A stretch of DNA of 20,051 nt. Origin: a virus. Location: positions 1 through 20,051 of the IMG/VR virus record IMGVR_UViG_3300042889_001164; one strand, 5' to 3'. The position numbers and the translations under genes are program-made. Numbering within the stretch: position 1 is the stretch's first letter; every line of letters starts with the position of its first letter. The notes beneath the pieces were generated by a model that saw only the letters and a list, made by a program, of their open reading frames with translations, was not told where the DNA came from and did no database searches. Shown here in pieces: positions 9,950-11,574 of the stretch.

Positions 9950-10228
9950 ATGGAAGACAAAAGAAAATTAAATGGTGGTCACTCAAATGGTGGTCGCAAA
10001 AGTAAAGCAGAAGAGCAAAATCTAATTGAGAAACTTTCTCCTTTGGAAGAACAAGCATTTATTAAACTTTCTGAAGCTATTGATGGTGGTAAAGATTGGG
10101 CTATTAAAATGTTCTTTGAATACATGTATGGTAAACCTAAACAGCAAACTGATATAACGTCTATGGGTGAGAAGATTCAGAATGTTATACATTTAGGGAG
10201 TGGAATAAATCCAAATGAAAATAAATGA
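9950..10228 (+). CDS. Putative terminase small subunit (92 aa)
   Basis: Starts MEDKRKLNGGHSNGGRKSKAE, the Gly/Lys-rich head typical of small terminase or DUF5681-like proteins in these phages. A helical core follows (LIEKLSPLEEQAFIKLSEAI, then WAIKMFFEYMYGKPKQQTD), and the end is TSMGEKIQNVIHLGSG. The gene overlaps the large terminase gene by 4 nt. Small subunits bind the pac or cos site and hand DNA to the large subunit. The assignment rests on position and general pattern; a typical helix-turn-helix is not evident. Confidence 0.65.
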   Translation: MEDKRKLNGGHSNGGRKSKAEEQNLIEKLSPLEEQAFIKLSEAIDGGKDWAIKMFFEYMYGKPKQQTDITSMGEKIQNVIHLGSGINPNENK

Positions 10229-10347
10229 AACTTTTAGTAAAACAGGAACACGCTACATACTATTTAAATGACAGCACCACCGAAGAAGTACTCTATGGTG
10301 GGGCTGCCTTTTATCCCCCTTTGAAATTAAGTAGGAGGGGGAGATAA
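10225..10347 (+). CDS. terL: Terminase large subunit, N-terminal segment, interrupted in the P-loop
   Basis: MKLLVKQEHATYYLNDSTTE then EVLYGGAA is the start of a large terminase; the canonical continuation GGGKSAFGC is encoded in the same frame from 10354. Between them lie 45 in-frame nt (10306-10350) with two consecutive TAA codons at 10345-10350. Ordinary translation therefore gives only 40 residues. The start overlaps the small subunit stop (ATGA). Either the gene is disrupted here, or the insert is bypassed or removed during expression. Confidence 0.7.
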   Translation: MKLLVKQEHATYYLNDSTTEEVLYGGAAFYPPLKLSRRGR

Positions 10348-10350
10348 TAA
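10306..10350 (+). repeat. 45-nt stop-containing hairpin insertion in terL
   Basis: The left arm TTATCCCCCT (10311-10320) pairs with AGGGGG (10336-10341) and ATAA (10344-10347), leaving a 2-nt AG bulge and a 15-nt loop. The insert is a multiple of three, keeps the frame on both sides, and is flanked by GCTG at 10303-10306 and 10351-10354. Its C5/G5 arms are far more GC-rich than the surrounding DNA. They resemble the C-run/G-run palindromic repeats scattered in Bacteroidota genomes. Removing 45 nt restores the terminase P-loop GGAAGGGKS; deletion between the GCTG repeats gives GGAGGGKS. Confidence 0.75.
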
Positions 10351-10395
10351 GCTGGTGGTGGTAAATCCGCATTCGGTTGCTTATGGTTAATTTCA

Positions 10396-11574
10396 ATGTG
10401 CCAAAACTATCCAAACACTAGATGGTTAATGGGTAGGGCAAAATTAAAAACATTGAAAGAAACTACTTTAAATACATTCTTTGAATTAGCTAGTAAATTA
10501 GATATAGGAGATGAGTTTAAATATAACGCTCAATCAAATGTTATTTACTTTGAGAATGGTAGTGAGATAATTTTAAAAGATTTATTCTTATATCCTTCAG
10601 ACCCAAACTATGACAGTTTAGGTTCATTAGAGATTACAGGAGCGTTTATAGATGAATGTAACCAAGTTGTTTATAAAGCGTGGCAAATCGTTAAATCTAG
10701 GATAAGATACAAACTAACTGAATATAATTTAATACCTAAAATGTTAGGCACTTTAAATCCTGCAAAGAATTGGACTTATAAAGAATTTTATCAACCATCT
10801 AAGAACGGAACTTTAAAAGATTATAGAAAGTTTATACAAGCGTTACCACAGGATAACCCACATTTGCACCCTTCTTATTTAAAGTCATTATTGCAGTTAG
10901 ACAATAACGCAAAACAAAGGTTATATTATGGTAATTGGGAATATGACGATGACCCATCTACATTAATCGATATGGATGCAATTATAGACTATTTTAACCC
11001 CGTTCATATAAATGATAATGGTAAACATTACATAACTATTGATGTGGCTCGTAAAGGTAAAGATACGACTGTTTACAGAGTATGGAATGAATGGAAGTGT
11101 ATTGATGTTGTAATATTTGCAAAGAATACAATAGTAGAAGCATACGACGAAGCTCGAAAGTTACAAGCTAAATACAACGTCCCAAATAGTCAAACAATAG
11201 CAGATGAGGATGGAGTTGGTGGTGGTTTGGTCGATATGTTAAGATGTGAGGGGTTCGTTAATAATAGTAGAGCTTTGAATGGTGAAAACTATGAGAATTT
11301 AAAAAGTCAATGTTCTATTTTAATGGCTAAAAAAATACAAGCTAGAGAATGTGGAGAGGTTTCAATTAATACACACGTTCGTGATTTGGTTAGTGAAGAA
11401 ATGGAGCAAATTAAACAAAAAGAAATTGACAAAGATACTAGATTAGGGATTATTTCAAAAGATGTTATAAAAGCAAACATAGGTCGTTCACCAGACCATT
11501 GGGATAGTATAATGATGAGATACTATTTCGAGTTAAAACCAAAAGCAAAAGCACCTAGAAGCCGTTTATTATGA
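10396..11574 (+). CDS. terL: Terminase large subunit, ATPase remainder and nuclease domain (392 aa from this ATG)
   Basis: The first ATG downstream of the insert is at 10396, but homologous coding starts at 10351 (AGGGKSAFGCLWLIS). Numbered from 10396, Walker B is GAFIDECNQV with D86/E87, followed by a coupling-motif-like GTLNPAKNW. The RNase H-like nuclease has acidic residues in TIDVARKGKD (D216), ADEDGVGGG (D270, D272) and SPDHWDSI (D367, D370). The protein should package DNA into proheads and cut it. If translated alone from 10396, it would lack the Walker A loop and could not hydrolyse ATP. All other motifs look intact, so decay is recent or the full protein is still made. Confidence 0.85.
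   Translation: MCQNYPNTRWLMGRAKLKTLKETTLNTFFELASKLDIGDEFKYNAQSNVIYFENGSEIILKDLFLYPSDPNYDSLGSLEITGAFIDECNQVVYKAWQIVKSRIRYKLTEYNLIPKMLGTLNPAKNWTYKEFYQPSKNGTLKDYRKFIQALPQDNPHLHPSYLKSLLQLDNNAKQRLYYGNWEYDDDPSTLIDMDAIIDYFNPVHINDNGKHYITIDVARKGKDTTVYRVWNEWKCIDVVIFAKNTIVEAYDEARKLQAKYNVPNSQTIADEDGVGGGLVDMLRCEGFVNNSRALNGENYENLKSQCSILMAKKIQARECGEVSINTHVRDLVSEEMEQIKQKEIDKDTRLGIISKDVIKANIGRSPDHWDSIMMRYYFELKPKAKAPRSRLL

Follow-up and report, generated by a model that had tools for sequence, protein, structure and literature searches.

A structured insert in the terminase Walker A motif of related phages, a probable mobile translational bypass element

The window, by which we mean the whole stretch of DNA analysed, is a metagenomic phage contig of 20,051 nt. 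Its large terminase gene, TerL, which is essential for DNA packaging, is split inside the Walker A motif, where 45 nt separate YGGAA from GGGKS. Reading from the ATG at 10225 gives MKLLVKQEHATYYLNDSTTEEVLYGGAA, then FYPPLKLSRRGR followed by two stops, then AGGGKSAFGCLW and onward to the end of the gene at 11574. An initial annotation had described a 45 nt stop-containing hairpin insert in the terminase P-loop, and the sequence confirms it at 10309-10353. The features of the locus are given below; contigs that carry the insert are called bearers.

9950..10228, + strand: upstream gene in the small-terminase (TerS) position, from the ORF list, with a 4 nt overlap with the TerL start.
10225..10308, + strand: TerL exon 1, 28 codons (MKLL...YGGAA), the last being the proposed take-off GCC; aligned with insert-free YGGAAGGGKS relatives.
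10272..10306, + strand: 5' stem-loop, CAGCACCACCG...TGGTGGGGCTG, coding, its last base the first of GCC; from fold energy, synonymous-codon resampling and covariation.
10306..10308, + strand: GCC (Ala), the proposed take-off codon; all seven bearers share it, unchanged, as part of GCTGCC.
10309..10353, + strand: coding gap, 45 nt with the landing triplet counted in (42-45 nt in relatives).
10314..10342, + strand: gap hairpin of 9 bp, 10314-10322 with 10334-10342, starting 5 nt past the take-off codon.
10333..10338, + strand: AGGAGG, a sequence resembling a Shine-Dalgarno motif, within the 3' arm and ahead of the landing triplet.
10345..10350, + strand: two in-frame TAA stops within the gap.
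10351..10353, + strand: proposed landing triplet GCT, the sole GC dinucleotide in the window gap.
10354..11574, + strand: TerL exon 2 (GGGKS...), where reading resumes with GGT and runs for 406 codons and a stop; Pfam Terminase_3.

Exon 2 matches Pfam Terminase_3 (PF04466, E 9.5e-11), and a search by sequence for a solved structure matching TerL found none. A Pfam search with the gene at 9950..10228 returned no match; homologues of this gene precede TerL in L013/L083, L014 and L086. The window insert shows GCTG at 10303-10306 and again at 10351-10354, as well as CCCCC/GGGGG arms. Folded alone, the segment 10295-10365 is not unusual (z -0.45), and the gap hairpin is only moderately better than shuffled sequences (24/500). 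The significance of the insert derives from comparison with relatives, not from the window fold alone.

A scan of IMG/VR with exon 2 yielded 80 relatives, most of which read YGGAAGGGKS unbroken; the insert-free L002, L003 and L004 are 98-99% identical across the downstream query. Alignment of homologous terminases revealed the insert at the identical site in L013, L014 and L024, and pattern scans added L082, L085 and L086. A second scan for relatives, with an automatic P-loop check, found no further bearers. The insert is thus carried by seven separate contigs, the window and six other viral contigs, a count that comes from part of 545 IMG/VR TerL relatives and may miss bearers with different arms. 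The bearers are related phages of Flavobacterium-like bacteria.

Measured from GCTGCC to the resuming GGN, the gap is 45 nt in the window and in L085, 44 nt in L082, 43 nt in L013, L014 and L024, and 42 nt in L086. All three frames therefore occur among the seven, and the frame preserved in the window, which had been taken as meaningful, is incidental. Stops fall in the gap or soon past it, and the downstream TerL is intact in every bearer. Because the frame of the gap is not conserved, the gap must be removed or skipped if TerL is made. Two ways of translating around the stops were rejected. Stop readthrough cannot read gaps of 43 and 44 nt in frame. Internal re-initiation would need an in-frame start past the last stop and ahead of the P-loop, which six of the seven lack, so split translation cannot rebuild Walker A.

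All seven inserts share one anatomy: GCTGCC, T, NN, TA, TCCCCC, a loop of 16-18, GGGGGA, a spacer of 6-8 nt, GC(A/T) and GGN. The spacing on the 5' side is fixed (CCTNNTA in 7/7), and that on the 3' side ranges over 6-8 nt. The GCTG seen at both borders of the window insert is not a conserved feature, what is shared being GCTGCC at the 5' border and GC(A/T)GG at the 3' border. GGGGGA is present throughout; AGGAGG is found only in the window, L013, L014 and L086. Shine-Dalgarno pairing is little used in Bacteroidota.

The unit is also larger than the 10303-10354 first proposed, since it takes in the coding 5' stem-loop at 10272-10306 as well. This stem-loop consists of 35 nt of coding sequence and closes on the first base of GCC. 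Its minimum free energy (MFE) lies between -12.1 and -24.6 kcal/mol in the seven bearers; the same region averages -4.6 kcal/mol across 103 insert-free relatives, where the lowest value is -12.9 kcal/mol. When synonymous codons are resampled with the peptide held constant, the stability of the bearer stem-loops has P values of 0.0002-0.019, and 11 of the 103 insert-free relatives reach 0.05. Synonymous codon choice forms the 5' stem-loop in bearers. One insert-free TerL (L019:2887-2977) has coding sequence that forms 14 of the 15 stem-loop pairs (MFE -12.5), and is possibly a former bearer.

The gap hairpin begins 5 nt past GCC in 7/7 bearers. In an alignment fitted to the model, all nine pairs of its helix form in every bearer, two of them with changes on both sides, and 95.7% of cells pair across both helices. 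The covariation score and the number of pair types for both helices are reached by none of 500 shuffles of this alignment, which, being fitted to the structure, is biased towards it and holds only seven sequences. Slid versions of the fitted alignment collapse to 48-61% pairing. In an unfitted MAFFT alignment, where the 3' arm of L085 is misplaced, the covariation score is not exceptional (72/500). In every one of the seven bearers, the sense strand folds more stably than the antisense strand. Taken together, the conserved structure, the synonymous choice and the sense-strand stability indicate a function in the mRNA.

The downstream part of the gene is under constraint. For exon 2, dN/dS is 0.026-0.042 between the window and the close insert-free L002 and L004, 0.035 for the bearer pair L013/L014, and 0.017-0.099 when bearers are compared with their insert-free neighbours. 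The gaps of L013 and L014 are identical, so recent exchange is possible and their dN/dS alone is no proof. Inactivation of TerL by the insert, in defective phages that have no means of skipping it, would account for the window running into in-frame stops, but it would have to coexist with intact TerL and low dN/dS in seven contigs from about six lineages, and with covarying hairpins and a 5' stem-loop held at synonymous sites. Nor would dead inserts be expected to preserve their pairing as their identity fell to about 60%. We regard such inactivation as very unlikely, and the narrower proposal of a recent palindrome that kills the phage is contradicted by six relatives with the insert at the same codon, an intact TerL and purifying selection.

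Bacterial genomes commonly contain short GC-rich palindromes, and this abundance is what would favour a dispersed host repeat that landed in TerL by chance. The searches speak otherwise. The exact-arm pattern had no match in 400 Flavobacterium-genus genomes, and a covariance model run on 400 Flavobacteriaceae genomes gave no convincing copy, its three weak matches scoring 24.6-31.6 bits against 66.8-96.5 for the bearers; two of these, judged by their neighbourhoods, are intergenic hairpins, and the third is the one at 24.6 bits. The suggestion of a repeat dispersed in Flavobacteriia thus failed in both genome sets. A host repeat would further have had to strike the identical codon in seven phages, and we give this already contradicted explanation almost no credence. 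Among viruses, an exact 30-mer of the insert occurs in no other viral contig, and the arm pattern matches once per bearer record and nowhere in the insert-free phage records searched. Rfam has no significant match for the insert. Broader patterns allowing other take-off flanks or other genes gave, among the matches listed, chance matches or normal P-loops. No earlier report of this element was found in a search of open-access literature.

The distribution of the insert suggests that it moves. The seven bearers are spread over about six positions in the TerL tree, with insert-free relatives next to each, and the tree requires six changes of the insert label, which implies repeated gain or loss of the element. 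The bearer L082 and the insert-free L174 are alike on both flanks and differ across a patch made up of the 5' stem-loop and the gap. Gap types also depart from the TerL tree: that of L086 resembles those of L013/L014 (93%), and that of L024 resembles that of L082 (89%). Presence and absence alternate among close relatives with co-conversion of flanks, as in homing cassettes. The scatter on the tree, the patch and the gap types fit a cassette of stem-loop plus gap that would have moved laterally. Of the bearer stem-loop, the insert-free L004 (1834-1939) has only the 5' arm (CAGCACCACCGAAGAAGTACT); the 3' arm and the gap are missing, which may be a trace left by recombination when the element was gained or lost.

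Precise removal of a DNA element from the genome, before or during infection, would make the close insert-free relatives its products, and the hairpins could form in single-stranded DNA as well. These relatives differ from bearers at flanking wobble positions, however, and cannot be read as the products of simple excision. Recombination from phage to phage fits the local differences in the patch, each bearer record has only the one arm-pattern match, and the 5' stem-loop sits in coding sequence that would be retained. Removal at this level, for which no joined bearer sequence was seen, is highly improbable, and the same holds for the DNA-level excision proposed in the initial annotation.

Two bearers, L086 and L024 (L403 is on the same contig as the latter), have an HNH_3 gene immediately upstream of TerL, whose start overlaps the end of the HNH_3 gene. 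The two HNH proteins share 58% identity with each other, and that of L086 resembles phage proteins annotated as homing endonucleases. None of 92 distinct insert-free relatives with at least 700 nt upstream has an HNH gene abutting TerL (Fisher P 0.0043). No HNH gene lies next to TerL in five of the seven bearers, and the link is an association from two cases. The arrangement in these two resembles that of phage T4, where mobE is the endonuclease linked to gene 60.

This structured mobile insert is very probably skipped when TerL is made. The skipping itself has a close precedent. In T4 gene 60, a 5' stem-loop, a take-off stem-loop and re-pairing of the peptidyl-tRNA carry translation over a 50 nt gap, with sliding that is processive up to 56 nt (PMC11194080). 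The TerL insert is alike in that a noncoding gap of some 45-50 nt interrupts a phage gene (PMC5009743, PMC11194080), a 5' stem-loop precedes take-off, a hairpin stands at or after the take-off codon, the proposed take-off and landing codons are related, and, in two of the seven bearers, there is an association with a putative free-standing homing endonuclease (PMC5009743). From this T4-like layout we infer bypass from GCC to GCT or GCA, with the ribosome as the skipping agent, and likewise the exact codons and the target of the HNH enzyme. Judged by the sequence comparisons, the insert is probably a laterally mobile programmed translational bypass element, with take-off at GCC and landing at GCT or GCA. 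Bypass from GCC at 10306-10308 to GCT at 10351-10353 had been one of three readings offered at the outset and is the best supported of them.

In such a mechanism, the element would comprise the 5' stem-loop, formed within the 12 codons that lead up to the gap, together with the hairpin gap of 42-45 nt. The ribosome would translate 28 codons to GCC, holding peptidyl-tRNA-Ala in the P site, with the gap hairpin at its leading edge and the 5' stem-loop refolding behind it. The tRNA would leave GCC, the ribosome would slide about 45 nt, and the anticodon would re-pair with the first GC(T/A) past the hairpin, reading then resuming at GGN. The skip would restore the family-typical YGGAAGGGKS of Walker A, in a fusion peptide spanning EVLYGGAAGGGK. 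At the DNA level the cassette would spread most likely by homing-type gene conversion, and it may block the target site of the HNH endonuclease encoded beside TerL in some bearers.

The landing triplet is GCA in five of the seven bearers and GCT in the rest. It is the first GC past the hairpin in every case and the only GC of the gap in six. Take-off and landing triplets (GCC vs GCT/GCA) all encode Ala and match at two of three bases. Among 31 Flavobacterium-genus genomes, tRNA-Ala anticodons UGC and GGC were both seen; of these, a GGC tRNA would be a poor partner for GCA. No phage-encoded tRNAs that might serve as helpers were found in the window or in the other bearer records. All TerLs of the family share a conserved N-terminus, and any nascent-peptide signal is inseparable from that conservation. 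The weak points of a bypass are thus the third-base codon mismatch and the identity of the tRNA, and the case for it is a comparative one.

An imperfect match of codons would be harmless if the insert were instead cut from the mRNA, between GC and C at one end and between GC and T or A at the other, by a minimal ribozyme or by hairpin-recognising proteins. The frame of the gap would then be irrelevant, the GC dinucleotide is common to both borders, and the structure is conserved in the sense strand; moreover, the TerL of phage ICP1 is spliced, with a homing endonuclease gene that lies outside the intron, beside an exon (PMC10448857). Set against this, a gap of 42-45 nt holds no group I or II catalytic core, Rfam offers no significant match, no RNA ligase or splicing protein was found among the neighbours examined, and the matched Ala triplets, with landing at the first GC, suit re-pairing of a tRNA. 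To our knowledge, 42-45 nt is far below the size of any known group I or II intron. Excision from the RNA, also among the readings first offered, remains the main rival of bypass, and we consider it unlikely.

A bypass at TerL would differ from T4 gene 60 in several respects. The gene in T4 encodes a topoisomerase; the T4 codons are matched, GGA to GGA, where here Ala GCC would give way to GCT or GCA; and the T4 take-off codon lies inside the hairpin, which here starts 5 nt past take-off. T4 also has a stop beside take-off. The absence of a stop directly after take-off, pointed out in the initial annotation, holds for the window but not for L085, the only bearer with TAA there (the others have TTT or TAC), and such a stop is not general to bypass. 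Finally, seven natural versions from separate lineages are available here. The variant is most likely new in sequence and codons, its principle being the one known from T4.

Other systems offer partial parallels. Streptomyces phage Hau3 and prophage Strep C.1 have a predicted bypass in a phage terminase gene (PMC5009743), but with a gap reported to be much shorter and tied to the UUA codon of Streptomyces, not to a deleterious insert. The byps of Magnusiomyces capitatus mitochondria are likewise numerous small blocks that translation skips, some with imperfect take-off/landing matches (PMC5009743), but they fall at 81 sites in mitochondrial genes and are reported to be independent of mRNA context, unlike the one site and conserved context found here. 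For Prevotella loescheii plaA, a bacterial adhesin gene, a 29 nt hop in Bacteroidota was reported (PMC5009743), without follow-up. Inteins and introns of TerL that come with homing endonucleases are similarly mobile and sit in the TerL ATPase domain near its motifs (PMC5050341, PMC10448857), but rely on protein or RNA splicing, for either of which this insert is too short.

Efficient natural bypassing has so far meant mainly T4 gene 60, the predicted Streptomyces phage terminase and the yeast mitochondrial byps. If the TerL element does function in this way, it would be a second phage bypass system, one whose seven natural variants would reveal the required RNA parts by comparison. It would add another link between a recoding gap and a homing endonuclease, suggesting bypass as a repeated hiding strategy of mobile DNA, and such TerL genes would be misannotated as broken.

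The genes in the TerS position (window 9950-10228, L082:905-1390, L401:9988-10332 and L403:4-597) match differing families even where their TerLs are related: GP3_package, DUF5681, Sf6_terminase, or none. Three of the proteins end in similar tails (NVIHLGSGINPNENK in the window, NTIINLGSGIKPNEATE in L082 and NIINLGSGIKPDETTD in L401), perhaps a TerL-docking peptide. Just upstream of the terminase genes of the L085 phage is a gene (L401:10366-11520) that combines ParB_N and N6_N4_Mtase domains.
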